Assembly: GCA_904384255.1 (NCBI GenBank)
Contig: CAJFJP010000004.1
Span: forward strand, 1 to 42,842
Reading direction: 5' to 3'
From: Candidatus Timburyella stercoris
Lineage (GTDB): Bacteria > Bacillota > Clostridia > Oscillospirales > Acutalibacteraceae
Length of the DNA: 42,842 bases
A program made the translations under genes and the position numbers. Under the pieces are notes generated by a model that saw only the letters and a program-made list of their open reading frames with translations, did no database searches and was not told where the DNA came from. Positions 2,109-19,406 of the stretch are shown one piece after another (position 1 is the first letter of the stretch; every line of letters starts with the position of its first letter).

Positions 2109-3281
2109 TCATCCGGCATTCAGGATTCCGTCCAGCGTATTGGTAGCGGACGGCAGATCCTCTTTGAGCAGATGAATATAGGTGTTATATGCAATTCCTA
2201 CATCCGCATGACCCAGCAGACGGGATACGATTTTGATATCCACCTTGTTGGCGAACAGTTGGCTGGCAAAGGTGTGACGAAGAGCGTGAATGCCTATATG
2301 GGGGATTCCGGCCCGTTCTAGAATACAATCGTGTGCCCGGTTCAGGTTGCGCGGATTGATCGGTTTCCCTGTTGCATTCGCAAACACCAATGAAAACTGT
2401 CCGTTGATTTTCTGTAATTCCCGAAGTGCCTGAAGCGCCGTCTGGTTGAGAGGAATGGTGCGGTCTCCAGAGGTGGTTTTGGTGCTGCCCTCCACAAAGC
2501 AATACCGCGGTTCTCCCGAAACGATGTTTCGATTCTTGACATATTCCAGCGTACGCTCCACTTTTAGACTTTGTTTTTCAAAATCAATATCTTCCCATCG
2601 CAGTCCTAGTGCCTCGCCTAACCGCAGGCCGGTGAATAGGATGAGAACCAATCCGTATCCAAGATGATACACCGGTTTCCCGTTACCGTACTTTTCTGTG
2701 GCAAACTGGCAATATGCCTGCATCTGTTCTTTCGTCAACACGTCTATCGTTTTAATGCCTTTTTCCGCCTTCTTCGGCAGTCGGATTTCAAAGCAGGGAT
2801 TTTTGACGATCTGATCTTTGACCATAGCAAACTTGAAGCAGGCGTTCAGAGCCAGATAGGCTTTTTTGATCTGGGAGTAAGAGTAACCATCGCCGTCCAG
2901 CTTATTGATGAATTTTTGAATGTCGTCATGAGTCAGCGTAAAGAACTGCATTCCTTTGAAGTAGGGGATAATCTGATGATGAATGGTGCTTTCCAGCGTG
3001 TCGTAGGATTTGGGCTTGAGTTCGATTCGCTTGTAGGTGGTCAGCCAGTTCAGCATATACTCCTCAACGGTCTGCTTTTGAATTTCCCGGTAGGTTCCGC
3101 TTTCCAGCATCTTCTTGAATTCCCGGAATTTTTGGTTGACCTCCGCCTTGGTCTTTCCGTAAATAAACTTCTTTTTTCCCTCCACAGTGATCTGCCGGAA
3201 CCACCGGCCGTCTTTTCGCTGCTTGGGTGCGGTACCTTCGCCGTTATCCCGGCGGGTTTTGGTTTCATTGGTTGCAGGCAT
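2109..3281 (-). CDS. Tyrosine recombinase/integrase of left element
   Basis: Tn916-type integrase features (TGLRLGEALGLRWEDID, HALRHTFASQLFANKVDIKIVSRLLGHADVGIAYNTYIH). ORF track starts at 3446, but ATG at 3281 (MPATNETKTRRDNGEG) has an RBS (ggagtagactt). Confidence 0.93.
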   Translation of the reverse strand: MPATNETKTRRDNGEGTAPKQRKDGRWFRQITVEGKKKFIYGKTKAEVNQKFREFKKMLESGTYREIQKQTVEEYMLNWLTTYKRIELKPKSYDTLESTIHHQIIPYFKGMQFFTLTHDDIQKFINKLDGDGYSYSQIKKAYLALNACFKFAMVKDQIVKNPCFEIRLPKKAEKGIKTIDVLTKEQMQAYCQFATEKYGNGKPVYHLGYGLVLILFTGLRLGEALGLRWEDIDFEKQSLKVERTLEYVKNRNIVSGEPRYCFVEGSTKTTSGDRTIPLNQTALQALRELQKINGQFSLVFANATGKPINPRNLNRAHDCILERAGIPHIGIHALRHTFASQLFANKVDIKIVSRLLGHADVGIAYNTYIHLLKEDLPSATNTLDGILNAG

Positions 3282-3435
3282 AAGTCTACTCCTTTCACTC
3301 GATTTCAAAGGTAGTATGACTTTTCCTGAGAAGACTGGACGTCTGAAATTCTGACAGCCTTTTTCGGGATAAAGGAGGTGCATCGGGGGATAAAAGAGGG
3401 GAAACCGCATCGCCCACAACCTCTTTTCAGCAAAC

Positions 3436-3482
3436 GAAAAAGACACGAAAAACCTTGGTAAATCAAGGCTTTCCGTGTCTTT
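3436..3482. terminator. Terminator-like hairpin abutting the middle att repeat
   Basis: aaaagacacg..ccttg/caagg..cgtgtctttt inverted repeat with T-run, immediately next to the partial tRNA-Trp sequence. Confidence 0.6.
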
Positions 3483-3532
3483 TTCACTGGCAGGGGCAGA
3501 AGGACTTGAACCCTCGGCACGCGGTTTTGGAG
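3481..3532. repeat. attachment-site direct repeat (partial 3' end of tRNA-Trp), middle/left copy
   Basis: ttttcactggcaggggcagaaggacttgaaccctcggcacgcggttttggag, identical over 52 bp to 14072-14123. Confidence 0.92.
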
Positions 3533-3726
3533 TGGATGTGAAATTGAGCGAGACTAAATGAATGATGGCGTTATTAAACGGTTAATGAAGATAGATTAGG
3601 AAAGAGAAGTCAGGTTTGATGCTATATTGATGATATTGCAAGATAATGTAGAATTGCAGTCAAAAATTGCTATGCTGTAAACAAAGAATAGGAATTTACC
3701 GGTTAAAAAACCAATATTGCAATATC

Positions 3727-5607
3727 TTATTCAGAATAATACTGTGCCTGGGCATTCCAAAGTTCGTAATATTTTCCGGTTGTTTCTGCCGACAGGAAAT
3801 CATGACTTCCTCTTTGCACAAGTTTGCCTTCATGGAACACGACGATATCATCGCAGAATCGGCAGGAAGAGAGGCGATGGCTGATATAGATGGCTGTTTT
3901 GTTGCCTACGATGTCGTTGAAGTTGCTGTAAACTTCCGCCTCTGCAATTGGATCGAGCGCCGCTGTGGGTTCGTCAAGGACGATAAACGGCGCATCCTTA
4001 TAAAGCGTTCGTGAGAGCGCTATCTTTTGGGCTTCGCCGCCCGAAATGTCAACTCCTGTTTTGTTGAATTCCTTATACAGATAGGTTTCTAGTCCATCTT
4101 CTAACGTATCCAAACGATCACCGAATCCCGCTTTCCGCAAACACTTTTCGGCTAATTCTTTATTGTATACAACTTTTACGCCAACGTTTTGTCCAAGGGC
4201 AAAAGCAAAGAGTTTGAAGTCCTGAAACACAACAGAAAACATTGCCATATAATCTAAATAATCGTATTCCCGGATATCCGTTCCGTTGAGAAAAATCTCA
4301 CCTTCGGTCGGATCGTAAAGACGACACAGCAGTTTAATAAACGTGGTTTTCCCGCTGCCATTTTGCCCCACAACAGCAAGCCGTTGGCCCGCTTTCAATT
4401 TCATATTCACATTCCGCAGGGCATAGGTATCGCTTCCCGGATATTGAAAGGAGACGTTTTTAAATTCTATCTCATAATCATGCTGACCGCATTTTTCGAT
4501 ATGGAGATTGCCTTGCCGCATGGTATTGGGTATTTCAAGAAACTCAAAAACAAGCTTCAGGAAAGAGGCGTTGTTTCTCATGTCTCCGACAGTTCCGATA
4601 AGGGACGACACGCTTCCGGACAATTTCGTGATAGAAGCGATATATTGCGTAACAGCACCGATTCCAAACGCGCCTGCCCAAGCCTTTAGACAGACAAAGA
4701 CATAAACAAATCCCGTGAAGATCACCGATACGGCGGCGGAAGCGGCGCCATATAACCCGATTGGCCCCTTAGCGTATGTGGCGAAGATTCCTTTCGAACC
4801 GAATGTGTCCGTTTTGTTGCTATTGTATTTATCGCAAATGATGTCCTGACGATACATACGCACATCGGTTGCTAATTCCTGCCGGTAGCCAAGCCAGCCG
4901 AAAAAGCCAAACAGGCGATTTGCCAAGTTGTGCGAGTCTGCTCGATGCGCATAATAGCTGCCGGCCTTATTGGACAAAGCCGGCGAGATGTATGTAACGG
5001 CGAGCATCACAAGAATAACCACGAGAACAAATAAGGGGTTGTTGAGTACCGTCAAACCGCCCGCGCTTTCCGGGACCGGCTGAATAAAAAGTGTCACTGT
5101 CAACGCTATACCGCCGAACAGAGTAAGGATTGCCGAAATAATCGCTTCATAGTTGCCAATCACCCGATAAAGCCCCCAGCCACCACCGTTTTGGTTCTGA
5201 TCGATGGTCGAGAGTTTTTCATGGGTCTTGGTATCATCGAGGCTTACAAAATCCATATCCAGCAGCTTTTGGGTAAAAATCTGTTTAACCTTAAAATACA
5301 TTCCGGCGCACTGTGTATCTCGCCACTTGATAAAGAAGGCGGATACGAGCGAAATAACAGCCGCTGAAATCAGGGTAATCAAAACCAACCTTGTCAATGC
5401 CTGCGGGTTCCTGCTGGTGGAAAGTTCTTCAATAAGCAAAGCCGATAGATAAATGCCGACGTATGGTGTCAGCGCTTCCCAAACAACGCAGACGATTCGC
5501 GAGGCAAACATCTGTGGATACTGTTTATAAAGCAGGTGAAACGCCTTTTGATTGACGGCATATGCCTCTTTCCAAGAGAGAAGCTTCTTATCTTTCTTTT
5601 TCTTCAT
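3727..5607 (-). CDS. ABC transporter, fused permease/ATP-binding (exporter-type half-transporter)
   Basis: Walker A VGQNGSGKTT, signature SGGEAQK, Walker B FIVLDEPTAALD, multiple TM segments. ATG at 5607 with RBS gaaaggagg preferred over the track start at 5691. Confidence 0.93.
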   Translation of the reverse strand: MKKKKDKKLLSWKEAYAVNQKAFHLLYKQYPQMFASRIVCVVWEALTPYVGIYLSALLIEELSTSRNPQALTRLVLITLISAAVISLVSAFFIKWRDTQCAGMYFKVKQIFTQKLLDMDFVSLDDTKTHEKLSTIDQNQNGGGWGLYRVIGNYEAIISAILTLFGGIALTVTLFIQPVPESAGGLTVLNNPLFVLVVILVMLAVTYISPALSNKAGSYYAHRADSHNLANRLFGFFGWLGYRQELATDVRMYRQDIICDKYNSNKTDTFGSKGIFATYAKGPIGLYGAASAAVSVIFTGFVYVFVCLKAWAGAFGIGAVTQYIASITKLSGSVSSLIGTVGDMRNNASFLKLVFEFLEIPNTMRQGNLHIEKCGQHDYEIEFKNVSFQYPGSDTYALRNVNMKLKAGQRLAVVGQNGSGKTTFIKLLCRLYDPTEGEIFLNGTDIREYDYLDYMAMFSVVFQDFKLFAFALGQNVGVKVVYNKELAEKCLRKAGFGDRLDTLEDGLETYLYKEFNKTGVDISGGEAQKIALSRTLYKDAPFIVLDEPTAALDPIAEAEVYSNFNDIVGNKTAIYISHRLSSCRFCDDIVVFHEGKLVQRGSHDFLSAETTGKYYELWNAQAQYYSE

Positions 5608-7444
5608 TGACAGCGACCTCCTTTCTGTAGTACTTACTCTGCACTTCAAACAGTTCAGCGTATCTCCCGCCGCGAGCAAGTAGTTCATCATGCGTCCCTT
5701 CCTCGGTTATGCGGCTTTTCTCAAGAAAGATAATCCTATCGCAAAATCGGGTGGAGGCGAGACGGTGGGATATATAAATAGAGGATCGTCCCCTCGCCAT
5801 CTCACTGTATTTTTCATACATTTCGGCTTCCGCAATCGGATCCAGAGCAGCTGTCGGTTCATCCAATACGATAACGGGTGCGTCTTTGTATAACGCTCTT
5901 GCAAGCATAAGGCGCTGCGTTTCACCGCCCGACAGCATAACGGCATTTTCGTAAACCATTCTGTTCAAATAGGTGTCAAAGCCATCCGGCAGAGATTCAA
6001 TTTTGGAAAGCAGTCCGGCCTGTTCCGTACACGCTTTCACCTTTTCCATATCCATATTGTCCTCTGTCTGCGCGACATTGGTAGCTATAGTTGCGGCAAG
6101 CAAAGAAAAATCCTGAAAAACTGCGGAGAACATCCTGTAATAATCCCGGCGGTTGTATTCTTTGATATTCCGGCCGTTCAGAAGTACCTGCCCTTCAGTG
6201 GGATCATAAAATCCACAGATTAACTTTACGAGGGTGGTTTTCCCGGCACCGTTCAACCCTACGACCGCCAGTTTCTCTCCGGGCCGGAGGGTAAGGTTAA
6301 TGTTTTCAAGTGTATATTTTCTGCTTTCCGGATAGCGGAAGGATACGTTTACCAGCTGAATCTCATAAGCCTGTTTGTTGTCCGGCTCAAGAGATTCGCC
6401 GCTTTCAAAGTCAAACGGTTCGGGATATTCAATGCACTCTCTCACTGTGGATATATCCAAGCTTTGACGATGCAGTGTGGTTAAATCCCCGAGGATTCCA
6501 GACACCCAGGTGGTAAAGCCGCCAACTGCTGAAAAGTACAGCAAAAATTCCGATGCGCTTAATCCGTTTGCCAACACCAGATGTAGTAAATAGGCATAGG
6601 CAATGCCGTTTCGGATAAAGGCGAGAATGAGATCGGCAATCCGTCCCCAAATATAGACGCCGTTGGCTTTTTTATGGAACGCCATAAATGCAGCCATTGC
6701 TTTGGCGCCGAGTTCTTCCAGCCATGGCCGGATATGAAAAATCCTAATGTCCTTGGCGGCACTGTAATCTTTCGCCCTACCGTCTATGTACCACATTTTG
6801 TTCTCGTATTCGGCCACTTCTTCTCGATGCCGGTAGCCGTATTCATTGATGCGCTTACTGATGAGATACCCCATAAGCGTCGTAGCCAGAATGACCGCCA
6901 GCATCCACGGATCGAGCGAGAATAGTAACAGCATATACAGGATAAAGCCGAGAACATTCGTCGTTAAATTCGTAAGGGTAGTCCAAACCGCTTCGGTGGC
7001 CTGGTTGTTGCTACAAGTGGCTTCACTTGCTTTGGTGCATAATTTTTTAAATTTTTCATCACCAACATTAGGATATGAAGTGGTTGCTGCTTTTCGATTA
7101 AGTGCGGTAATAATAGCGCATCTTACCTGGATTCTTCCATACAGCGTGTTCGCGCCAATATAGGAAGAAGCGGCGGCGCATAGCATGAGCAAGCCTACGA
7201 ACACTAAAATAATAACAATCAGCTGCGGTATGGGAACTTTGCTTTCTACGGCTCCCAAAATCGAGGGCGTAACATAGAGGCCCACAAGGCTATTGGTTAC
7301 AGTAAATACGGCGGATAAAAAAGCCAGCACCAAAACCTTTTTCTCTTTTTCACGCCAAGCCAATGAAATCATGTATGCGGCGTTCTGCCACATATTATAC
7401 TTGGGCTTTGGACTTTTTTCTTGTTTTGCTTCTGTGTCTTGCAT
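5588..7444 (-). CDS. ABC transporter, fused permease/ATP-binding (partner half-transporter)
   Basis: Walker A VGLNGAGKTT, SGGETQR, VIVLDEPTAALD; overlaps the downstream ABC gene by about 20 nt. ATG at 7444 follows ggagaggggcgaaacc. Confidence 0.93.
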   Translation of the reverse strand: MQDTEAKQEKSPKPKYNMWQNAAYMISLAWREKEKKVLVLAFLSAVFTVTNSLVGLYVTPSILGAVESKVPIPQLIVIILVFVGLLMLCAAASSYIGANTLYGRIQVRCAIITALNRKAATTSYPNVGDEKFKKLCTKASEATCSNNQATEAVWTTLTNLTTNVLGFILYMLLLFSLDPWMLAVILATTLMGYLISKRINEYGYRHREEVAEYENKMWYIDGRAKDYSAAKDIRIFHIRPWLEELGAKAMAAFMAFHKKANGVYIWGRIADLILAFIRNGIAYAYLLHLVLANGLSASEFLLYFSAVGGFTTWVSGILGDLTTLHRQSLDISTVRECIEYPEPFDFESGESLEPDNKQAYEIQLVNVSFRYPESRKYTLENINLTLRPGEKLAVVGLNGAGKTTLVKLICGFYDPTEGQVLLNGRNIKEYNRRDYYRMFSAVFQDFSLLAATIATNVAQTEDNMDMEKVKACTEQAGLLSKIESLPDGFDTYLNRMVYENAVMLSGGETQRLMLARALYKDAPVIVLDEPTAALDPIAEAEMYEKYSEMARGRSSIYISHRLASTRFCDRIIFLEKSRITEEGTHDELLARGGRYAELFEVQSKYYRKEVAVNEEKER

Positions 7445-7520
7445 GGTTTCGCCCCTCTCCAAATGAAGTTGTTTATTATAATAGTGTCTGTATTGACAAT
7501 TTGGTTTGAAAAAAGTGAAA

Positions 7521-8423
7521 CTAAATTTGATTGAATTGATTACTTTTATTTACATGCTTGGTTTGATATTCTGAAAGATCCTGGCAGGGGTATTCCGAAC
7601 ATTTGCTACAGGATTCTAAATTCTTCTCCTTGCAGCACTTTTTGAATGGACAGCCTTTGCAGAGTTCAAACACATCTTCCGACTTGCCGCCGGAGCAGTT
7701 GAATTTCTCCAGGGGGATATCCTGTCCGAATTCCTCTTTATAGAATCTCCGGGACTGTTCACGCAAAGTATCGTCATTGTTTTGGGTTGCAAGATAGGTA
7801 ACACATTTTGCACAGTCATGACCGCAATAGCAGAGGTTTGTATCCTGTATATTGACAATCAACGAATCATCATCCGTTAAAGCAAATACTTTATATTTTC
7901 CATCCGCCATAAGCTTATTGTATAGCGCCTTGCGATCTTCTGTGTAATGGCAGATAAGTATGCCGTCAAATAATCCCAATCCGTTAAAATCGTTCATACC
8001 GTCAGGAACGGAATCAAAAGCCGATATATGTTCAATGCTTTGGGACGCAATATGCGCTCCGGCGCTTCCACCGATGTAGAGAACGCCGGATTTTACATAA
8101 CGGATTATTTCTTTATCAAAACCGCAATCTTTTATCCGCTTAAGGGTAGCAAAGGTATTACCTCCGCTTATGTAAATAATATCAATGTCAAGTCTGCCAA
8201 ATTGATCAGTATTATAGTAATCAAAAATCCGGACATTGCTTCTTGTAAAACCGAACTCTTGCATTCTTAGATAATACTTTTCGCTGTGAATAGTTTCAAA
8301 AGTTGCTTTTTCGTTAGGAATAAAGAGCAGCCTGCACTGATCGATTGGTTTGCAGAGATTGTCCATTATGGTTTGTCTCGCCTTTTTATTGCGAAAATCG
8401 CAAGACGAAAGAATGAGTTTCAT
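7521..8423 (-). CDS. Peptidase E (S51)/class-I GATase-like domain fused to a Cys-rich DUF3795-like C-terminal domain
   Basis: N-terminus: nucleophile motif YIGGSAGA and IYISGGNTFATLKRI. C-terminus: CGHDCAKCVTYLATQNND...CKGCPFKKCC...CSKCSEYPC. Confidence 0.85.
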   Translation of the reverse strand: MKLILSSCDFRNKKARQTIMDNLCKPIDQCRLLFIPNEKATFETIHSEKYYLRMQEFGFTRSNVRIFDYYNTDQFGRLDIDIIYISGGNTFATLKRIKDCGFDKEIIRYVKSGVLYIGGSAGAHIASQSIEHISAFDSVPDGMNDFNGLGLFDGILICHYTEDRKALYNKLMADGKYKVFALTDDDSLIVNIQDTNLCYCGHDCAKCVTYLATQNNDDTLREQSRRFYKEEFGQDIPLEKFNCSGGKSEDVFELCKGCPFKKCCKEKNLESCSKCSEYPCQDLSEYQTKHVNKSNQFNQI

Positions 8424-8622
8424 CTTTAGTCATCTTCCCTTCAGAATTTTATTTGTGGTTATTTTGACAAAACCACACACTTTTCCTTATCGTTTATATT
8501 GATACGTTTCTTGAACGGCTTAAGCACATGAACTTATTCCGGATGGTCAAAGAAGTCATAGCTTTACCCGCGGTTCAAGAGCGTCACAGCATGAGTGACA
8601 ACTATAACCTCTGGCCAGCTTT

Positions 8623-9174
8623 CTACAAATGGAATCTCTCCTTGATCATTTGTGCGACAACATCGGGTGCAAGATTCGAATTATCAATTTTTATATAATT
8701 TTCAAAAGAGATTTCTCCATCAATACTCTCAAGCCTAGCAAGAGCATCGTCTTCCAACAATCTCTGGTTTGAAGCTTCAATATCTCTCTTAGCTGCCTTA
8801 TGTTTCAATCGGTTTTCTGTGACATTTCGCTCCAAACGAATTTTCTGAGAGGCAACAAGTTCAACATAGTAAAACTTGGTATTATAGGGTTTAAAAATGC
8901 TTTTGACGGCTTCGATATAATCCCAGTCTGATTTCCAGTCAAACGCCCACATATAGGTAAAGATCATGCCATAATTGTCGGACTTGGCAAATTCTTCGAA
9001 AATAACATGACGAAGTCGGTTAATAGCCACTGGGTTAAACTGTCCGAATATCTCAATGACAGGTTCAATTGTCATATGGTTGTGAAATAACCGCAAGCCG
9101 GTTATTTTCATAAGTTCCTGCCCGACTGTCATTTTACCAACAGCGGCATTTCCGATCATAAATAACAATTTCAT
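8623..9174 (-). CDS. P-loop AAA-type ATPase/kinase-like protein
   Basis: N-terminal P-loop-like MKLLFMIGNAAVGKMTVGQEL; 183 aa kinase-like architecture. Confidence 0.75.
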   Translation of the reverse strand: MKLLFMIGNAAVGKMTVGQELMKITGLRLFHNHMTIEPVIEIFGQFNPVAINRLRHVIFEEFAKSDNYGMIFTYMWAFDWKSDWDYIEAVKSIFKPYNTKFYYVELVASQKIRLERNVTENRLKHKAAKRDIEASNQRLLEDDALARLESIDGEISFENYIKIDNSNLAPDVVAQMIKERFHL

Positions 9175-9591
9175 TTTTCACCGCTCTTAATATGTTCACC
9201 GTTCTCTTTCCGGAAGAAGTCGATGGTTACATAGCGTTGAGACGCGATATACTCAAAGAAGCTTAAAATGTCACAGAACACATTCCATCTGGCACTGATG
9301 GGCAGTTGCATAAACCGAGTTATCGAGTAAACATATACGTCTCTTTAATAATATCACAAAAAAATAGATTTTAAAAGATTTTTATTTTATATATTCACTT
9401 AAATTGAAAATAAAGCAGTAAGAGTAAGACGGATTTTGTACCACAGTAAACAAAGAAAACACTATTCCCAAAAAGCAGAAAAATATTCATCCAAATGTTG
9501 ACAACGAACAGACGTTCTGGTATAATGCAATTAATAATTGAATAAGTGCCTACATAAAAGTCTGCCGCAGAGCAGCAAAACATATAAGTGC

Positions 9592-9691
9592 AAAGACCTT
9601 ATCTACATATCGGGCACGGAATATGAAGAAAAGCGAACGAAACCGTCCGTTTTATTTGTGTTACCGTAGTGCGATAGAAGATAAGGTCTTT
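9592..9691 (+). promoter_or_regulatory. Structured leader ending in an intrinsic terminator upstream of xis (candidate attenuator)
   Basis: 13-bp perfect stem AAAGACCTTATCT (9592-9604)/AGATAAGGTCTTT (9679-9691), inner TATC/GATA and GCAC/GTGC pairs, then tttttatttttt and the xis RBS. Confidence 0.55.
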
Positions 9692-9716
9692 TTATTTTTT
9701 AGCAGGAGGTGTCAGA

Positions 9717-9926
9717 TTGAAAGAATCGGCTTACAAAAGCTATGACGAGCTGCCGCTGTTTCTGAATGCGGAGATTGTAGGAAATGTGCTGGGCGTGTCT
9801 TCAACAACAGCCTACGAGGTAATGCACAGAGAAGATTTCCCAAGCATAAGGATCGGCAATCGGCTCATCGTACCAAAAGAAAAGTTTAGAGAATGGGCAA
9901 ATAGCCAGACAGAAAGGAAAAGGTGA
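9717..9926 (+). CDS. Excisionase-like HTH protein of right element
   Basis: LPLFLNAEIVGNVLGVSSTTAYEVMHREDFPSIRIGNRLIVPKEKFREWA; TTG start with aggaggt RBS. Confidence 0.85.
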   Translation: MKESAYKSYDELPLFLNAEIVGNVLGVSSTTAYEVMHREDFPSIRIGNRLIVPKEKFREWANSQTERKR

Positions 9927-9931
9927 TGTGA

Positions 9932-10327
9932 TTGAAGTACAAGCAATATCCCCAAAGAGATGCCATCAAAAACTTTTTTCCTCTGCCGAATGAAATCTTC
10001 TGCCTGGGTCTTTGCTCCGGTGAGATTGCCGTATACGCTTACCTGATGTACTGCGAGGATCGGAAAACCTTTCAGTGCCATCCCAGCTATCGCACCATTG
10101 GCCGGGCGGTAGGACTCAGCCGGAACACGGTCAAAAAATATGTTGCATGGTTAGAGCAAAAGCAACTTATTGCGACACAACCAACAACAATCTATACCAA
10201 GGACGGCAGAAAACGCAACGGCAGCTTGCTGTATACCATTCGTCCTGTCGAAGAAGCAAAAGCACATTACTACGAGCAGCAGTTGGAACGGGCAGCTTTG
10301 CTTCAAGTACGGTCCAAGGCAGGATAG
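9932..10327 (+). CDS. Winged-HTH replication-initiator-like protein
   Basis: FFPLPNEIFCLGLCSGEIAVYAYLMYCEDRKTFQCHPSYRTIGRAVGLSRNTVKKYVAWLEQKQLI, typical wHTH of mobile-element Rep proteins. Confidence 0.75.
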   Translation: MKYKQYPQRDAIKNFFPLPNEIFCLGLCSGEIAVYAYLMYCEDRKTFQCHPSYRTIGRAVGLSRNTVKKYVAWLEQKQLIATQPTTIYTKDGRKRNGSLLYTIRPVEEAKAHYYEQQLERAALLQVRSKAG

Positions 10328-10373
10328 CATATCTTCTGTCAAATTCGGCGGATATTATGGAAAGCAGGTTAAA

Positions 10374-10451
10374 GTGAGGGGTCTATAGCCTCCTCACGTA
10401 TCACATCGGACGGCAGAGCCGACCGTTTCAGAGAAAAAACGAAGGGGTCGG
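10374..10451. promoter_or_regulatory. Candidate oriT region (nested inverted repeats upstream of the mobilization genes)
   Basis: GTGAGG(10374-10379)/CCTCAC(10392-10397) and CCGACC(10419-10424)/GGTCGG(10446-10451) in the intergenic gap just before the accessory gene and relaxase. Confidence 0.35.
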
Positions 10452-10468
10452 TCAGAAACGGAGGGTTT

Positions 10469-10873
10469 ATGGAAGACAAGAAGAAAAAGTATGCCTACTG
10501 GATGCGGCCATCTATGGTGGAGGAAATGGAGAGTATGCTTTCCGAAGCCAATGCCACGTCCAAAAGTGAATTTGTGTGCCAAGCTGTAGAATTCTATATG
10601 GCCTACCTGCGCCAGAATAAGAGTCTGGAATTCTTCTCACCGCTGCTGGCGCAGACGATCAAAACGGAGGTCGAAAGTGTGGAACGGCACATCTCGGAAA
10701 TGCTGTTCAAGGTCGCGGTGGAACAGTCCATTCAGAATAACCTAACCGCCGCTTTTAACGAGGTGGATGAGGATACTATGGCGAGGCTGAGGAACTCCTG
10801 CGCCGGTGAGGTGGCGCGGCTCAACGGTGTGGTTGCATTCGAAGACGCCTACGAATGGCAGCGGGGTGAATAG
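10469..10873 (+). CDS. Mobilization accessory / RHH-type DNA-binding protein
   Basis: Short protein directly upstream of the relaxase; N-terminus YWMRPSMVEEMESMLSEANATSKSEFVCQAVEFYMAYL resembles ribbon-helix-helix. Confidence 0.65.
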   Translation: MEDKKKKYAYWMRPSMVEEMESMLSEANATSKSEFVCQAVEFYMAYLRQNKSLEFFSPLLAQTIKTEVESVERHISEMLFKVAVEQSIQNNLTAAFNEVDEDTMARLRNSCAGEVARLNGVVAFEDAYEWQRGE

Positions 10874-10875
10874 CA

Positions 10876-12228
10876 ATGCCGAAGATCATATTCACCAGCC
10901 GGTATATCAAGAATCCGGCCAGAGCCAATGCCGGTAAGCTGGTCAAGTATATGGGAACACGGGAAGGTGTGGAGAAGCTGCCGGACGGATTCGATCATCG
11001 TCCGGCTACGAAAAAACAGATTGCTCTAATCTGTGATTTAATAAAAGCATATCCACCTGCGTGGGATTATCCAGAATGTGTGGATTTTAGGCAGAAACAG
11101 TCTCGTGGTATGGCAACGGAATTTATAGACGCGTTCATTGAACGCAATGCCGACCGGATTGACGGCATCAAAAAGTTGGTGTCATATATGGGAGAGCGTC
11201 CCGGCGTCGAGAGACTCGGCAAGCACGGACTGTTCAGTCAAAACGATGATAAGATCGATTTGGATGCTGTGGCAGAGGAAGCATCCCATCACGAAGGCAT
11301 CCTCTGGACGCACGTTGTCAGCCTTCGTCGGGAGGATGCGGAACGGCTTGGTTACAACAATGCCAACGCATGGAAAGAACTTGTGCGGCGCAGCGCTTTG
11401 CAAATTGCCGAGGCGCACAAAATCGAGCCTTCGCAAATGCAATGGTATGCGGCCTTCCATAACACAACCCACCATCCGCATATTCACCTGATGGTGTATT
11501 CCAAAGATGTGAAACAGGGGTATCTCACCAACAAAGGAATCGAAGAAATGCGCAGGCTGCTCGCCAACGATATCTTCCGCAACGAAATGTACCATGCCTT
11601 CACGCTGGAAACTCAGATGCGGGATGAGGTTCGGGCAGAAGCGAAAAGGCGGATCAATGAATTGCTGGAAAGCGCGGAAACGCCAATCGCCGCGTCCAAG
11701 GAAATGAAAAATCTGTATAGCCAACTGGTCGGACAGCTTTCCGGTTACAAAGGCCAAAAGGTTTACGGCTATCTTCCTAAAAGTATCAAGCAGACGGTTG
11801 ACGCCATCGTTGCCGAGCTTGCAAAGGATGAACGAATTGCCGAATTGTATGCGGAGTGGAACAAGGCCAACCGTGAAAAGCTGTCGATTTACTATGGCAA
11901 ACCAAAACCGGATATTCCGCTGGAGGACAACAAGGAATTTCGTGACATCAAGAATGCTGTTCTGCGTTCGGCGGTATTGATGATGCAAACCAGCGTCTCC
12001 CTACAATCAGCACCTATCAATTCCGCTGTCGGAAATTTAATTGCCATACTTGCAAAAGCCATAGCCGCAAGCTGTCAAAAGCGGCGGATGAAATTGGATA
12101 CGCAGATCGACTCCAAGCTGAAATCCAGGATCGAGCGGAAGAAACAGGCTCACGGCTTGAAAACTGACCGTTCTGTGCAGGCAGGTCACAACGAAGATGA
12201 GGAACAGGGTATGCACCTCAGTATGTGA
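10876..12228 (+). CDS. MobP-type (MobP3-like) relaxase
   Basis: MPKIIFTSRYIKNPARANAGKLVKYMGTREGVEKL...QWYAAFHNTTHHPHIHLMVYSKD: three-histidine relaxase motif HHPHIHLMV. Confidence 0.88.
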   Translation: MPKIIFTSRYIKNPARANAGKLVKYMGTREGVEKLPDGFDHRPATKKQIALICDLIKAYPPAWDYPECVDFRQKQSRGMATEFIDAFIERNADRIDGIKKLVSYMGERPGVERLGKHGLFSQNDDKIDLDAVAEEASHHEGILWTHVVSLRREDAERLGYNNANAWKELVRRSALQIAEAHKIEPSQMQWYAAFHNTTHHPHIHLMVYSKDVKQGYLTNKGIEEMRRLLANDIFRNEMYHAFTLETQMRDEVRAEAKRRINELLESAETPIAASKEMKNLYSQLVGQLSGYKGQKVYGYLPKSIKQTVDAIVAELAKDERIAELYAEWNKANREKLSIYYGKPKPDIPLEDNKEFRDIKNAVLRSAVLMMQTSVSLQSAPINSAVGNLIAILAKAIAASCQKRRMKLDTQIDSKLKSRIERKKQAHGLKTDRSVQAGHNEDEEQGMHLSM

Positions 12229-12310
12229 CTTTTTCCTTACTTTTTGCAAAGTCGCTGGATATTCCAATCGAGGTGTGGTATGGTGTGTCGTTAAGAAAGG
12301 GGCTGAAAAT

Positions 12311-12619
12311 ATGCCGAAGCTAATTCAAAGCTATGAGGCGGTGGAATGCAAAAGCATACGCAGGATATCCGATACGCCGTATGAAATCTGGAATTGGCGA
12401 GAGGAGTGCATTGGTCTCCGAGGAATCCTGTTTATCTTTGAGAGCGAGAAAAAGCATCCTGGAAAGCACTTTATCCGTTTTATGAATGTGGAATACGACC
12501 TGACAACGGGCTGCGGAGAGGCTACCTTCGAAGATAATGCCATTGCCTTAACCACACGAAACAGCGTTTATGAATTTGAAATATTAGGGGGTGACAAAGA
12601 ATGCAGAGAAGATTGTTAA
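12311..12619 (+). CDS. Small conserved hypothetical protein between relaxase and integrase
   Basis: ATG at 12311 (MPKLIQSYEAVECKSIRRISDTPYEIWNW), RBS aaaggggctg; overlaps the integrase start by 19 nt. Confidence 0.65.
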   Translation: MPKLIQSYEAVECKSIRRISDTPYEIWNWREECIGLRGILFIFESEKKHPGKHFIRFMNVEYDLTTGCGEATFEDNAIALTTRNSVYEFEILGGDKECREDC

Positions 12620-13815
12620 CCAACGGCAATGCCTTCAAGCGTACCGACAACCGCTGGGGCGGCGTAGTCTGGTATATGGACGAGCATGGAGAACGGAAAC
12701 GCAAGAGCTTCTCCGGTACGACCAAAGCCGAGGTCAACAAAAAGATGACGGACTATATCGCGGACTTTGAAAATCAAGCCGTGGAGTCGGATGAGTCCAA
12801 AAAGACACTACAGGACAGTATGCAGAACTGGCTGCAGGTGTTCAAATTCCCATCCGTGGAGCAGACTACCTATGACCGATGCGAATGCAGTGCCAAAAAT
12901 CAGATCTATCCTCTGTTGGGGGAAAAGCCGGTTGGAGACATCACAGCGGCAGATATCAAAAATCTGCTCAACTACTGGATGAACAAAGGCTACGCTTACA
13001 CAACCGTTAAGAAAGCCTACGTGGTGCTAAACGAATATTTCCGATATCTTTATCGCGAAGAACTGATTCCGAAAAATCCCATGGCGAATGTGGAGATGAT
13101 GAAGAAAAGCAATTTCCTGTCGGCGCAGGATAAAGAAGATTTACCGGAATGCGAAACAGTGACTATTTTCACGCCGGAGGAAATTGAGAAATTCAAAGCC
13201 GAAGCGTTCAGCACCTTCAAAGACGGAAAACGGAAATACCAGCAACCAGCGGCATATATCTTGATGCTGAACACAGGATTACGAACCGGAGAGTTGCTCG
13301 GTCTGCTGAACGCTGACATCGACCTTGAAAAGAAAACGCTGATAGTCCGGCAGGGCGTAAAAGAAGTATCGAGAAGAAAAGGTACAGAATTTACAAGCGG
13401 CCGGGAGATCAAAGTCGGCAAGCCCAAAAGCGCCACCAGCAAGCGCACAGTGCCGCTGAACAGGACGGCGGTGAAAATGATCGAGGATCTACGCAGAGAA
13501 GCCTATTTCGGGGAAAATACGCCCCTTGTGGCGGACGGAAACGGAGGCTACACCAAACCGGTCAATCTGCGAAAGAGATTTTACCGAATCCTCAAGGCGG
13601 CGGGGATTGAGCAGAAAGGGCTGCACAGCCTGCGGCATACCTTCGCGACCAATTTGGTCAATGGACAGAAGCAAGCTGACGGAACCATCAAGGCATTATC
13701 GCCAAGGCAGGTAGCCGATCTGCTGGGACACAGTACCTCACAGATCACTGAACTGTACTATGTGAAAAAGGACACGGCAAGACTCAGTGGCATCACCGAA
13801 GGCTTTGAGATGTAA
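12601..13815 (+). CDS. Tyrosine recombinase/integrase of right element
   Basis: NTGLRTGELLGLLNADIDL, LHSLRHTFATNLVNG, RQVADLLGHSTSQITELYYV motifs. Confidence 0.95.
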   Translation: MQRRLLTNGNAFKRTDNRWGGVVWYMDEHGERKRKSFSGTTKAEVNKKMTDYIADFENQAVESDESKKTLQDSMQNWLQVFKFPSVEQTTYDRCECSAKNQIYPLLGEKPVGDITAADIKNLLNYWMNKGYAYTTVKKAYVVLNEYFRYLYREELIPKNPMANVEMMKKSNFLSAQDKEDLPECETVTIFTPEEIEKFKAEAFSTFKDGKRKYQQPAAYILMLNTGLRTGELLGLLNADIDLEKKTLIVRQGVKEVSRRKGTEFTSGREIKVGKPKSATSKRTVPLNRTAVKMIEDLRREAYFGENTPLVADGNGGYTKPVNLRKRFYRILKAAGIEQKGLHSLRHTFATNLVNGQKQADGTIKALSPRQVADLLGHSTSQITELYYVKKDTARLSGITEGFEM

Positions 13816-13822
13816 CTGAAAA

Positions 13823-13850
13823 GACCGCTCAGACGCAAATCTGGGCGGTC
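13823..13850. terminator. Terminator-like hairpin after right integrase
   Basis: gaccgctcaga cgcaaa tctgggcggtc followed by aaaattt. Confidence 0.5.
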
Positions 13851-14071
13851 AAAATTTGCGATGCAGTAAACAAAGAAAAGGCAAAAATCCACCAACAGCA
13901 CCGCCGCTGACTGATGCTATTTTGATGATGTAGTACACGGAATCGTTGCAAACCGTTGGCAGCAGATGCGAAATTGACGCTCGTTTTGAGCATCAAAATG
14001 CGGCAAAGCAGACCGAGCGCCGGGCAGGAAAGATACAAGAAAAGCGGCTCAAACCCGCATGGTTGAGCCGC

Positions 14072-14123
14072 TTTTCACTGGCAGGGGCAGAAGGACTTGA
14101 ACCCTCGGCACGCGGTTTTGGAG
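14072..14123. repeat. attachment-site direct repeat, right copy (inside tRNA-Trp)
   Basis: 52-bp identity with 3481-3532. Confidence 0.92.
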
Positions 14124-14250: not shown

Positions 14251-14541
14251 TTATATATTATTTGTATTATCAGATATTAATCCGAGAGACAATAGCTTTT
14301 GATATTTTCTTTCAATGTCATTAATATCAATTCCCCAAAGTTCATATGCAGTTTGAGTATGTATATCGGAAGATTTCCAGCATTTTATATTTCTTTCACG
14401 CATAATTTTTTGAACCTGCTTTTTCATGTTGAATGCCGTAGATGGACTAACACCAAATAACTGAGAAATTTGCTTTGTGCCCAGACCAGACGGATATTGA
14501 TAATATATTTGAATAGCAGTTTTTAAATCGGGTACTTTCAT
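14251..14541 (-). CDS. Small HTH DNA-binding protein
   Basis: GTKQISQLFGVSPSTAFNMKKQVQ helix-turn-helix pattern. Confidence 0.6.
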   Translation of the reverse strand: MKVPDLKTAIQIYYQYPSGLGTKQISQLFGVSPSTAFNMKKQVQKIMRERNIKCWKSSDIHTQTAYELWGIDINDIERKYQKLLSLGLISDNTNNI

Positions 14542-14725
14542 ATATTACATCACCTTATGTAAGCTTATTTAGCTTGTTGCATAATATCAAACTATATTGT
14601 CAAAAAGGGAAATAAGCAAAAGTGTTAAAATTAAATCATAGTAATAATTAAAGAAAATAAGGAGATTTATATTGACCAATCAGTAGATTTATGATATACT
14701 AATGTAAAATAAAAATAAACCTTTA

Positions 14726-14944
14726 CTATTTAAAAAAGTCAATATCTAAATTAAGTGCTTTACAAATAGCAATAAAATCACTGGCCTTAAGATTTGTTTT
14801 TCCACTTAAACAATCGTTTAAATAAAGTTCCGGCAGGCCAATTTGCATTGAAAGTTTTGAGACTGATATTTTATTGTCATCTAAATAGGTACGTAGCTTT
14901 TCAGCAATCATAATAAACATCACCATATAAGGCAAATTATACAA
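14726..14944 (-). CDS. XRE-family HTH regulator (short)
   Basis: MIAEKLRTYLDDNKISVSKLSMQIGLPELYLNDCLSGKTNLKASDFIAICKALNLDIDFF; true start may be the internal ATG at 14911. Confidence 0.75.
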   Translation of the reverse strand: MYNLPYMVMFIMIAEKLRTYLDDNKISVSKLSMQIGLPELYLNDCLSGKTNLKASDFIAICKALNLDIDFFK

Positions 14945-14963
14945 GAATAGAATAATGGAAAAA

Positions 14964-15046
14964 TTCGTTTTAGATTAAACGAAAAAATAGTTATTATCAA
15001 ATATTAACATGTATAAATTCGTTTGTCAATGCCACAATAAAACGAA
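14964..15046. promoter_or_regulatory. Operator-like repeats between divergent XRE genes
   Basis: Four TTCGTTT/AAACGAA half-sites at 14964-14970, 14977-14983, 15018-15024 and 15040-15046. Confidence 0.55.
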
Positions 15047-15106
15047 ATAGATAGGTTTATTGAAAATCAGAATTATGTATGATAAAATTAGCGCAGGGGT
15101 GGTAAA

Positions 15107-15577
15107 ATGGCAGAGTTTAATTTGGCCAGTAAGTTAAAGCAGGCTCGAATTAACAAGGGATTGACCCAAAAGCAAGTATATAATCAGTTAGGGGTTGTAC
15201 AGTCTACATTCAGTTCTTGGGAGACTGGTAAAGCGGAACCGGATGCTGAAACGCTTATTAAACTGTGCCAAATATATGGAATAACCAGTTTAGATTATTT
15301 TATAAATAGTGATGTTGAGCAGAGTCAATTATATTTAAATAATTTAACTTCAGCAGAGAGAAGTATAATAGATGCCTATAGAGCGAGGCCTGACATGCAA
15401 AAAGCTGTAAACAAGCTGTTGGGAATAACAGGCGACAACACAAAGGAATATGACGGGAAAACAAAATACAGGATAGGAAGAGCTATAGCCTTTGGCGGTG
15501 CAACTTCAGAAACCGTAGTTGATGAAGACAACGACAAAGAGATAGTAAGATTGCTGAAAAAAATAGAAGATAAATAA
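15107..15577 (+). CDS. XRE-family (Cro/CI-like) transcriptional regulator
   Basis: LASKLKQARINKGLTQKQVYNQLGVVQSTFSSWETGKAEPDAETLIKLCQIYGITSLDYFI. Confidence 0.9.
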   Translation: MAEFNLASKLKQARINKGLTQKQVYNQLGVVQSTFSSWETGKAEPDAETLIKLCQIYGITSLDYFINSDVEQSQLYLNNLTSAERSIIDAYRARPDMQKAVNKLLGITGDNTKEYDGKTKYRIGRAIAFGGATSETVVDEDNDKEIVRLLKKIEDK

Positions 15578-15657
15578 AAAGTTTAAATTATTAGTGCTTT
15601 TTGTCGAATGCTGTTGTAAGATTATTATAAGAAAATAATCTTACGGGAGGGGAGCCT

Positions 15658-16509
15658 TTGAAAGTCGACAAAGAAGCAAGGAAGTTTACAAAAGAATATG
15701 AATTAACTCATCCGATAAAAGCAAGTGATATAGAAAGGATAATAAAGCGTCAGGGCTTCAAAGTGGTAAGATACAGCGATGAAAACGATGAAGCGGCGAA
15801 ACTGATAAGTCATTTAAAACTTAGTGAATACACACGTCTTGCAAATTGCTTTACTTATTTTGACAACAAATATAAAATACTTTTTATAAAAGACGGACTA
15901 TCGGCTGAGGATGAAAAGCTGCTATTTTTGCATGAAGAAGGTCATATTTACTTAAACCATTTTAATACTGGGAACACTATGCTCAGCACTGACATAACAA
16001 AAGAGCAAGAAGCACATTGCTTTACAGAATATGTACAGAAATACACAAAAATAAGATCACGGATGAAAAGCATGTTAATACCAGCGTGTGTAAGTTTGAT
16101 TATATGTTCTGTTTTTCTGCTTGTTTACATTTTTATGCCGCATAATTCTGCTACCATTACTGCTGGTGAGCATTCAATAATCTCCACAACAGGAGAAGAA
16201 AGCATATATGTTAACACAAGCGATATTGAAGAAGTGAGCATACCTCCGTCAGATTTTGGTGCAAGCAGCAATGAAGATAATATCTCATCAGATTATTTGG
16301 ATGCAGGTGAAATCGACACATGCTATTGGACGATAAGCGGAGAAGTTTATCATTTATATGATGACTGCCATCATATAAAGAATTCTTCAAGCATATTTTC
16401 AGGTACTGCATCCGACAGTGGCAAGGAAAGAGTGTGCCGCACATGTTACAGTCGCTATATTATGGAAAAATATGAAGGAAGCGATTATTTGCAATATGTG
16501 CAAGGATGA
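15658..16509 (+). CDS. ImmA/IrrE-like zinc metallopeptidase with transmembrane segment and extracytoplasmic Cys/His C-terminal domain
   Basis: HExxH motif LFLHEEGHIYLNH; TM MLIPACVSLIICSVFLLVYIFM; C-terminus VYHLYDDCHHI...VCRTCYSRY. TTG start with gggagggg RBS. Confidence 0.8.
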   Translation: MKVDKEARKFTKEYELTHPIKASDIERIIKRQGFKVVRYSDENDEAAKLISHLKLSEYTRLANCFTYFDNKYKILFIKDGLSAEDEKLLFLHEEGHIYLNHFNTGNTMLSTDITKEQEAHCFTEYVQKYTKIRSRMKSMLIPACVSLIICSVFLLVYIFMPHNSATITAGEHSIISTTGEESIYVNTSDIEEVSIPPSDFGASSNEDNISSDYLDAGEIDTCYWTISGEVYHLYDDCHHIKNSSSIFSGTASDSGKERVCRTCYSRYIMEKYEGSDYLQYVQG

Positions 16510-16799
16510 CTTCACAAGTATAAAACAAGCAAAGCTTGTTAAAAGCTTTAATATTATAATCTTAATTTAGATTAAAAAGTAATTTTTATACTTATTTTTA
16601 TTACATATTTGATTAACACCTTGAAAGAGATAAAATTCTTTCAGGGTGATTTTTTATGATTATAAATATTTAGATGCGAAATGCATCCAGGCTCAGCCTG
16701 ACAGTAAGGTACAGTAAATGTAGTAGACTATAAGCGCGGGCCTAAGAGTGCAAAAAAAGACCGAGCTTAGGGCGCAAAACGCGTCCAGGCCCGGCCTGG

Positions 16800-17012: not shown

Positions 17013-17240
17013 ATGACATTAAGAGATATACTTCCTGGCAAAAGATGCACAGTACTGAATATAACCGCAGCGCCAGCACTAAAAAAGAAGCTGCTTAGCA
17101 TGGGGATTACTCCCGGAATAAAGATATTAGTAAAAAAGTCTGCACCTTTTGGCGGCCCAACGCAGATTTTTTTAAGAGATTACGATCTTGTATTAAGGAA
17201 AGCGGAAGCGGGAGCTGTTATAGTCAAAAGTGAATATTAA
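17013..17240 (+). CDS. feoA: Ferrous iron transport protein A
   Basis: FeoA SH3-like sequence (MTLRDILPGKRCTVLNI...KKLLSMGITPGIKILV), followed by feoB. Confidence 0.9.
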   Translation: MTLRDILPGKRCTVLNITAAPALKKKLLSMGITPGIKILVKKSAPFGGPTQIFLRDYDLVLRKAEAGAVIVKSEY

Positions 17241-17345
17241 CCGGACGCGTTAATATTGTTGACAGTCTAATTTTATGAATGCAGTCTGATGCATCAGCGT
17301 ACTCCGGCAAACTTTTGGCGGCATTTTAGAAACGGAGGAAATTAT

Positions 17346-19406
17346 ATGCCTGTAAAAGCAGTGCTGGTAGGAAATCCCAACTGCGGGAAAAGCACTCTTT
17401 TTAATGTTCTGACTGGCGGTAATGCGCACGTGGGCAACTGGCCAGGAGTCACGGTTGAGCGAAGACAAGGCAAATACAAAATAAAGAATGAAGAGATAAG
17501 TCTTATAGACTTACCTGGAATATATTCGCTTTCTCCATACTCTCCGGAAGAAGATATAGCCAGACAGCACATAGTAGGCAGTGATACTCCGGATGTAATA
17601 ATAAACATAGTAGATGCAACGGCTATAGAACGCAGCCTATATCTCACAACCGAGCTTATGGAGACAGACATACCAATAGTAATAGCGATTAATATGATGG
17701 ATGCAGCAAAAAAGCATGGCATATCTATTTCCACTGAAAAGCTCTCGAAAAAGCTTGGGGTAGAGGTAATTGCCATATCAGCTGTCAAGGGCAGAGGGAT
17801 TAACGAGCTTATGAAAGCAGTACTGCGCGCCGCGCGGCTCAATCGTATCGGTGTAAGCACACTATATGAATATAATCTAAATAAATATGTAAAAAGTATA
17901 TCGCAGCTTTTAAAGTCCGAGGGTGTAAAACACCCCGCCTATTACGCTGCGAAAATTTTGGAGGAGGGTATGGCAGCATGTAGCAATATCAATTTAGATT
18001 CGACGTCAGATTTGCGAATAAAATCAGCATATGCTGCTGCAAAGCGCTATGCACCGGACGGAGATATTGAAACAGCGGCGGCCATAGCAAGATATAATTA
18101 TATAGACGAGTGCTGTGAAACTTCGGTAAAAAAACTGAAAATCTATAATATGACTGCGTCGGACAAAGCTGATAAGATTTTTACGCACAGACTGTTCGGC
18201 ATACCAATATTTGCAGTTATAATGGCGTTGATTTTCATCCTCACCTTTTCAAGCAGCATATTTGGCCTCCCAATGCCGGGCGCACTGCTGCACAGCGCAG
18301 TTGAGGGAGGAATTGATGTATGCCTTAATGCACTGCGGAGCATACTGGCCAAGATAGGTACAGCGTATTGGCTTGAAAGCCTGATAATCGACGGAATTAT
18401 GGGCGGTATAGGTTCAGTTATAACATTTATGCCGCAGATATTGCTGCTGTTTTTCTTTATAACAATATTGGAATCGAGCGGATATATGGCAAGGGCAGCC
18501 TTTATAATGGACGGGATATTACGCAAAGTAGGACTTTCGGGAAAATCGTTTGTGCCCATGCTTATGGGATTTGGCTGCAGCGTACCGGCTATTATGGCAT
18601 GCCGCACGATAGAAAATGAAAAGGACAAAGCGCTGGCAATTACCCTTATACCATTTATGTCATGCGGTGCTAAGCTGCCGATATACGGCCTGTTTTCGGC
18701 CGCGTTTTTTCCCGCGCATCAGGGAGCCGTAATGGTGCTGATTTACGGAATAGGCGTAGCAGTTGCACTTATGTCGGCGCTGATAATAAAGAAAAGATTA
18801 TTCAAAGGAAACGATGCAGCCTTTATAATGGAGTTACCATCCTACCGTATGCCGACAATAAGAAACATTTCGATAAGCCTGTATGAGAAAATGAAGCACT
18901 TTCTAATAAAGGCCGGCACAATAATAGCATTAGCGTCGGCGGCGGCATGGCTTACGCAAAATGTCAGCTTTTCGCTGCAAATGGTAGACGACCCATCATG
19001 CAGTATGCTGGGAAGCATAGGAAAAGCGATGCTTATAATATTTAAACCAATGGGATTTGGGGATAATTGGCAGCTCCCTGTGGCAATACTGGCGGGAATT
19101 ATTGCAAAGGAAGCCGTCGTATCAACTCTTGGTGTTCTTTATGGCGCGGGAGAAGAAAGTGCTAAAGCGGCTCTTGCAGCTCCGATAGCGTCAGTACTCT
19201 CTTCTGGCATATTAAGTCCGGCGTCAGGCCTTGCCTTTATGATATTTAATCTGCTTGCACCGCCCTGTTCGGCGGCACTTGCCGTTATGAGACGTGAAAT
19301 GCCGTCTAAAAAATGGTTCTGGTCGGCAATGATTTTTTATATAGCTACTGCTTACACAGTGTCTTTGCTTGTCTATGCCATTGCATCGGTAATTTTAAAT
19401 GTGTAG
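17346..19406 (+). CDS. feoB: Ferrous iron transport protein B
   Basis: GNPNCGKSTLFNVLTGGNAHVGNWPGVTVE, DLPGIYSLSPYSPEE, core TM domain GFGCSVPAIMACRTI. ATG at 17346 with ggagg RBS preferred over the track start. Confidence 0.95.
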   Translation: MPVKAVLVGNPNCGKSTLFNVLTGGNAHVGNWPGVTVERRQGKYKIKNEEISLIDLPGIYSLSPYSPEEDIARQHIVGSDTPDVIINIVDATAIERSLYLTTELMETDIPIVIAINMMDAAKKHGISISTEKLSKKLGVEVIAISAVKGRGINELMKAVLRAARLNRIGVSTLYEYNLNKYVKSISQLLKSEGVKHPAYYAAKILEEGMAACSNINLDSTSDLRIKSAYAAAKRYAPDGDIETAAAIARYNYIDECCETSVKKLKIYNMTASDKADKIFTHRLFGIPIFAVIMALIFILTFSSSIFGLPMPGALLHSAVEGGIDVCLNALRSILAKIGTAYWLESLIIDGIMGGIGSVITFMPQILLLFFFITILESSGYMARAAFIMDGILRKVGLSGKSFVPMLMGFGCSVPAIMACRTIENEKDKALAITLIPFMSCGAKLPIYGLFSAAFFPAHQGAVMVLIYGIGVAVALMSALIIKKRLFKGNDAAFIMELPSYRMPTIRNISISLYEKMKHFLIKAGTIIALASAAAWLTQNVSFSLQMVDDPSCSMLGSIGKAMLIIFKPMGFGDNWQLPVAILAGIIAKEAVVSTLGVLYGAGEESAKAALAAPIASVLSSGILSPASGLAFMIFNLLAPPCSAALAVMRREMPSKKWFWSAMIFYIATAYTVSLLVYAIASVILNV

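Follow-up and report, generated by a model that had tools for sequence, protein, structure and literature searches.

The window analyzed here comprises 42,842 nucleotides of contig CAJFJP010000004.1 of Candidatus Timburyella stercoris. At positions 14251–16648 it contains a four-gene divergent locus, one half of which is a gene pair encoding an XRE repressor and a metalloprotease. The pair was found between the tRNA-Trp and tRNA-Val genes, ahead of feoAB, both in this genome and in a sister species of the same genus (G001). The following features were recognized in the locus:

14251–14541, minus strand: HTH protein encoded downstream of the Cro-like gene; 79% identical and in the same place in G001
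14726–14944, minus strand: divergent Cro-like small HTH protein, 72 aa, with internal ATG starts possible (HTH_26, 4.5e-6; HTH_3, 6.1e-5)
14964–14983: putative operator O1, palindrome TTCGTTT-N6-AAACGAA, kept in G001
15001–15029, minus strand: predicted promoter of the divergent Cro-like operon, TTGACA-17-TAATAT with extended -10
15018–15024 and 15040–15046: two further putative operator half-sites around the -35 of the divergent promoter
15060–15088, plus strand: predicted promoter of the XRE–protease operon, TTGAAA-17-TAAAAT
15107–15577, plus strand: XRE/ImmR-like repressor, 156 aa, consisting of HTH, helix, linker with RAIAFGG, and final helix
15578–15657, plus strand: conserved protease-gene leader, 80 nt
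15600–15608, plus strand: 0A-box-like site TTTGTCGAA over a -35-like site, with a -10-like site extending to 15628
15614–15646, plus strand: 13-bp leader hairpin ahead of the Shine–Dalgarno sequence (fold z of -1.7 and -2.8)
15658–16509, plus strand: M78 (ImmA/IrrE-type) metalloprotease, 283 aa, with one transmembrane helix and a predicted external H-C-C-C module
15931–15945, plus strand: HEEGH catalytic motif, residues 92–96
16003–16005, plus strand: third ligand, E116
16075–16131, plus strand: single transmembrane helix, residues 140–158 (hydropathy 2.68; flanking charge +5 on the N-side and -1 on the C-side)
16303–16476, plus strand: Ada-like H-C-C-C module with H232, C237, C260, and C263
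16617–16648, plus strand: strong intrinsic terminator closing the two-gene operon, 13-bp stem and T run

The region to the left of the locus is occupied by a mobile element:

3488–14120: integrative element at tRNA-Trp, bounded at 3488 and 14079 by direct repeats of the tRNA (at least 40 bp)

This element contains two ABC exporters, a replication-initiator-like gene, a mobilization-type gene, and an integrase (12601–13815), and it is probably mobilizable. A second integrase gene, located to the left of it (2109–3446), suggests a tandem element on that side. The possibility that the switch locus is a part of the integrative element was ruled out because the tRNA-Trp repeats end at the tRNA. The locus has no integrase of its own, the nearest one being that of the neighboring element; this copy is chromosomal and is not accompanied by an element of its own. 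A connection with iron uptake by FeoAB (17013–19406) was also set aside: the terminator and tRNA-Val lie between, and the O1 palindrome is exclusive to the switch locus. No Feo genes were seen beside the pair in more distant loci.

The other half of the locus consists of the Cro-like gene, which is kept in the orthologous locus of G001, and the HTH gene downstream of it, whose product is a probable co-regulated target; weaker homologues of this second protein were found in six further genomes of 98. The O1 palindrome lies just downstream of the divergent promoter. Its exact sequence occurs once in this genome, and the sister species has it at the orthologous position and nowhere else (0.01 occurrences are expected by chance in the window), and four of the window's 10 TTCGTTT half-sites fall within 83 bp. 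The operator/promoter region is 85% identical to that of G001, compared with 70% for XRE DNA and 62% for protease DNA. Since conserved operators cover the divergent promoter, the XRE protein is predicted to repress the Cro-like operon, as in the switches of phages and ICEs; a divergent Cro-like gene with operators between, a feature of phage/ICE lysogeny modules, is present here.

The XRE gene lies directly upstream of the protease gene, as the first-pass annotation of the sequence had stated. Its product carries an HTH_3 domain (Pfam profile match, E 6e-13), and the DNA-binding domain of ICEBs1 ImmR (7t8i, 8.8e-8) was its sole PDB match below 1e-5. The protein is 75% identical to its G001 orthologue, reaching 91% in the HTH part. 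In ImmR, the point cleaved by ImmA is F95-M96, situated in the linker joining the last two helices (PMC8960796). A small-small-aromatic/basic-Gly motif was found in the C-terminal region of 20 of 27 partner XRE proteins, compared with 4.7 by shuffling; its version in the window is RAIAFGG. The motif was retained in upstream partners having no HTH family match, namely AAHGG in L028, AAYGE in L084, and AARNG in L089, the latter adjoining a soluble protease. From these sequences we infer that the tail motif may mark the site of cleavage or recognition or lie close to it. Related motifs are present in partners of soluble proteases as well, and a division of membrane and soluble systems by an aromatic residue or Arg in the tail was dropped, because a wider sample included soluble-protease partners with FAGG. 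The L084 partner (298–1389) is a 363-aa protein without a recognizable DNA-binding domain, encoded upstream of a gene for an M78 protease with transmembrane helix and module and ending in an XRE-like tail, TAAYGEESSFVDDEQ; it is possibly a non-repressor substrate.

The protease gene starts with TTG, preceded by the Shine–Dalgarno sequence GGGAGGGG. The Peptidase_M78 family (PF06114) matched the encoded protein with 18.6 bits, below the curated cut-off of 22, which counts against the switch reading developed below; several relatives of the same architecture scored 23–53 bits, over the cut-off, and PHROG 87 “metallo-protease” also matched the window protease. In an AlphaFold model built with five family members, most of the N-terminal domain and the transmembrane helix were modeled with confidence, pLDDT exceeding 90 in a large part of the former. 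The best Foldseek matches of the N-terminal domain model were M. tuberculosis M78-type regulators and IrrE/PprI (probability 0.77–0.99; for the top ones, probability 0.95–0.99 and E 0.03–0.1). A profile of 12 members searched against the PDB ranked CapP first, followed by three proteins of which two were IrrE-type, all of these matches being weak (E 0.005–0.14). Judging from these models, the N-terminal domain is predicted to have the M78 fold.

An HEEGH protease with a transmembrane segment after its catalytic domain had already been described in the first-pass annotation, and both elements were confirmed. The outside domain of roughly 130 aa ending in a Cys/His motif, proposed at the same time, needed revision: the motif (YHLYDDC...CRTC) is indeed located near the end, and the part following the helix counts 125 residues, most of which are an unstructured linker preceding a module of about 55 aa. 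Linker and module came out disordered in the full-length model. In comparison with the G001 orthologue, the catalytic domain is 66% and the module 64% identical, versus 25% for the transmembrane helix and linker.

The module alone gave a confident model with 15 sequences (pLDDT 89). Its Foldseek search returned four matches in total, three of which were E. coli N-Ada, at low probability (TMq 0.44–0.48, E of about 7). Of nine further M78 members, four showed sub-threshold matches to Ada_Zn_binding on the module (E 0.0003–0.009), as did the DnaJ-TM-module protein of L047; no Pfam family matched the module above its cut-off. The ligands of Ada are C38-x3-C42...C69-x2-C72, the first being the methyl-accepting cysteine. 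In every aligned member of the present family the first ligand position is occupied by His, so the four-Cys ligand set of Ada is not found here; an additional cysteine of the module, C222, is retained among close relatives. We therefore class the module as Ada-like without counting it among the Ada family proper, and expect it to bind zinc without methyl transfer.

The same module terminates lipoproteins and secreted proteins having lipoprotein or export signals (L043, L072, L079, and L080), and thus it normally works outside the cytoplasm. It is also found at the end of surface or membrane proteins from Bacteroidota, Fusobacteria, Slackia, and other Bacillota (L070–L081). A short protein of the CI region in a Fusobacterium phage record is annotated “Metal binding domain of Ada”, and the inducible Ruminococcus phage RG-TP1 encodes a DUF4236-TM-module protein between repressor and integrase. 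Beside some XRE–M78 pairs, the module is found on a separate protein (L047, 1246–1860; L025, 5797–6318; L041, 2978–3505) in the form of DnaJ-TM-module, TM-module, or module with linker, a split version of the same arrangement. Since many unrelated surface proteins bear this module, its sensor role is something we only infer, and it may be a generic anchor or stabilizer and not a sensor.

Relatives were sought in 98 related genomes, in 300 from the family, and in 391 from the class. Homologues with the same architecture, for which the first-pass annotation had proposed a search, do exist: a scripted survey of the fetched loci counted 35 proteins, and two more (L021 and L174) were recognized by eye. 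Their common layout is an M78 domain with HExxH and the downstream Glu, one transmembrane helix, a variable linker, and a C-terminal His-Cys-Cys-Cys module. The pattern H-x3/4-C, about 24 residues, C-x2-C was detected by script in 31 of 34 proteins. In 12 divergent homologues only H92, E93, H96, E116, and A119 of the catalytic domain and G228, H232, C237, C260, and C263 of the module are invariant, which argues that the architecture is not due to chance; the loss of the protease motif in homologues, named in advance as evidence against the proposal, was not observed in these members. One M78-TM-module relative (L042, 1459–2304) has a degenerate HExxH (VQIGH) and no adjoining XRE gene, possibly being a decoy or a receptor without protease activity.

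A single hydrophobic segment was found by hand in 13 of 14 members, and the protease-side flank of the transmembrane helix was more positive in 33 of 34 according to the script. These charges support an N-in/C-out topology, with the protease domain predicted in the cytoplasm and the module outside; the opposite orientation, which would have spoken against the earlier proposal, is not indicated. In a tree of the protease domain, several branches of which were weak, 34 membrane-module proteins were placed apart from 26 soluble ImmA-type proteases with two label changes. We consider the overall architecture, an M78 protease with a transmembrane helix and an external module, to be very likely.

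In 28 of the 35 loci, an HTH gene is the immediate upstream neighbor; the seven loci without a directly adjacent one, of which one is cut by the contig end, speak against the switch reading. In eight of the 35 relatives a gene of a site-specific recombinase follows within 750 bp downstream. A finished plasmid of Monoglobus pectinilyticus shows such an arrangement: a divergent HTH gene, then XRE, M78-TM-module, and integrase genes in the other direction. About 10 of the 300 genomes of the host's taxonomic family contain a member. A phylum sample of 399 genomes searched with a strict cut-off revealed no further one, and the family therefore looks confined to the class (Clostridia where the records were named), being sporadic there. 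Single-protein scans of genome-contig and viral-contig collections found no relatives, nor did tblastn searches in which full-length proteins were compared with phage records; among sequenced phages, the complete architecture is therefore uncommon.

Regarding function, the locus may well be a bistable phage-type switch of the ImmR/ImmA kind whose ImmA-like protease spans the membrane once and acts as a receptor, an explanation to which we give an even chance. The XRE protein would bind the TTCGTTT/AAACGAA operators and repress the divergent operon of the Cro-like and second HTH proteins, probably also tuning its own promoter. The cytoplasmic M78 domain would inactivate the repressor by a cut in the linker of its last two helices, near RAIAFGG, and the external zinc-binding Ada-like module would govern protease activity or assembly across the membrane in response to a presumably extracellular signal. 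The loss of XRE would flip the locus to the Cro-like state; in relatives from mobile elements, a switch adjoining the integrase would control excision. Inactivation of XRE by the protease seems likely, and for gating by the module from outside we regard the arguments as equally balanced. The one-step transmembrane switch suggested in the first-pass annotation is thus still the best reading: architecture, XRE linkage, and topology agree with it, and the divergent operon with conserved operators adds support.

The membrane part might simply be a tether: the protease would cut XRE upon an intracellular signal (DNA damage, ssDNA, or free zinc, as with ImmA, PprI, and IrrE), and the transmembrane helix and module would merely anchor the enzyme or hold it off the nucleoid. 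Free zinc activates IrrE, DNA damage activates other ImmA-like systems, the linker is unconserved at 25% identity, and unrelated surface proteins carry the same module, all of which is in line with such a tether. However, the module ligands are as invariant as the catalytic residues, the module is far more conserved than the linker, and surface zinc proteins recur in lysogeny modules, so that we regard a mere anchor as rather unlikely. A membrane anchor would equally suit sequestration, i.e., an M78 protein acting as an anti-repressor that binds XRE at the membrane without proteolysis, as proposed for Rir/Crh; Rir acts without cleaving the repressor despite its HExxH (cited in PMC7907104). The invariance of HExxH and the third ligand across 12 divergent members makes this mode of action improbable. 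Phage lysogeny regions often encode surface exclusion proteins, and in phage RG-TP1 a module protein lies between repressor and integrase; hence the module could serve an independent function at the surface, for instance superinfection exclusion, and be merely carried by a lysogeny gene. Its fusion to the protease via one transmembrane helix in about 35 proteins, and its retention in chromosomal copies without an element, leave this the slightest of the probabilities considered here.

The leader of the protease gene bears on a further explanation, in which the main input is developmental: Spo0A would drive protease synthesis from the gene's own promoter, and XRE would be removed at sporulation entry. 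With 92% identity to G001, the leader is more conserved than either the XRE or the protease gene, and about 50 bp ahead of the protease start, over the -35-like site, it contains TGTCGAA, the consensus of the Spo0A core box (PMC3485338). A near-match, CTTTTTGTCGA, is common to two further species of the same clade (L067 and L068), right after the XRE stop codon, and Spo0A is encoded by all four genomes, those of both sister species and of the two further ones. However, this is one short site, for which 0.42 matches of the 9-mer are expected by chance in the window, and in most other members the XRE and protease genes are separated by hardly any leader. A mainly developmental input is accordingly doubtful in our estimation; it is compatible with the transmembrane switch, and the 0A-box-like site suggests a second input to the latter.

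In general terms, we tentatively propose, at somewhat less than even probability, that M78-based one-protein transmembrane receptors exist, in which an external Ada-like zinc/thiol module directly gates the cleavage of CI/ImmR-like repressors, allowing domesticated chromosomal switches as well as mobile elements in Clostridia to read the extracellular environment, with Spo0A as an additional input in one clade. The stress activation of the other ImmA-type (COG2856) proteases studied is described as unclear (PMC7907104). If the proposal is true, a sensor built in through the membrane would make the input side of these proteases directly testable, with the invariant residues, operators, and partner tails as ready mutants; it would also account for how elements integrated in gut Clostridia could let extracellular cues decide on their excision.

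The Xre-COG2856 pair as a type has long been known and was listed as a candidate type II toxin–antitoxin system (PMC2701414). The closest described systems are ImmR/ImmA of ICEBs1, CapH/CapP, and DdrO/IrrE, with which the window pair shares gene order, the XRE fold, and the M78 motifs and fold; the linker between two C-terminal helices and the use in mobile-element switches are further likenesses to ImmR/ImmA. ImmA-type proteases have been described without a membrane anchor, whereas a transmembrane helix and an H-C-C-C module are fused to the protease here, and the window copy has no element. In a review, the membrane-bound M56 proteases are listed separately from IrrE (M78) (PMC7593790), and among the open-licence papers searched we found no published description of an M78 protease that is anchored in the membrane and carries an external module. 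The family, with its 35 or so relatives, is real and apparently undescribed.

In ligand spacing, and by weak matches also in predicted fold, the module resembles the Ada zinc domain of E. coli (N-Ada, PF02805), and relatives give sub-threshold profile matches; it differs in having His in place of the methyl-accepting Cys, in its predicted extracellular position, and in falling under the Pfam cut-off. Another parallel is offered by pneumococcal ImmAR prophages, in which the “surface-exposed zinc” proteins SzaL and SpaL alter induction, SpaL affecting its density dependence (PMC12637031). These are likewise surface zinc proteins of an ImmR–ImmA lysogeny module; however, they are separate polypeptides, whereas the present module is fused to the protease, and the two are likened by description and not by sequence.

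The receptor BlaR1, which combines an external domain with a cytoplasmic metalloprotease, cleaves the repressor BlaI (PMC9834060). BlaR1/BlaI and MecR1/MecI share with the window pair a membrane metalloprotease with an external domain encoded beside a repressor gene, and one-protein signaling by repressor cleavage is predicted here. BlaR1 and MecR1, however, belong to M56 and have several transmembrane helices, a penicillin-binding sensor, and a repressor of another family; the window protease, with one transmembrane helix, an M78 fold, and no penicillin-binding sensor, has no sequence relation to them. By analogy, BlaR1/BlaI would be the nearest functional parallel, an unrelated one, and the window protein, if the proposal is true, a receptor of the BlaR1 type built on another protease family.
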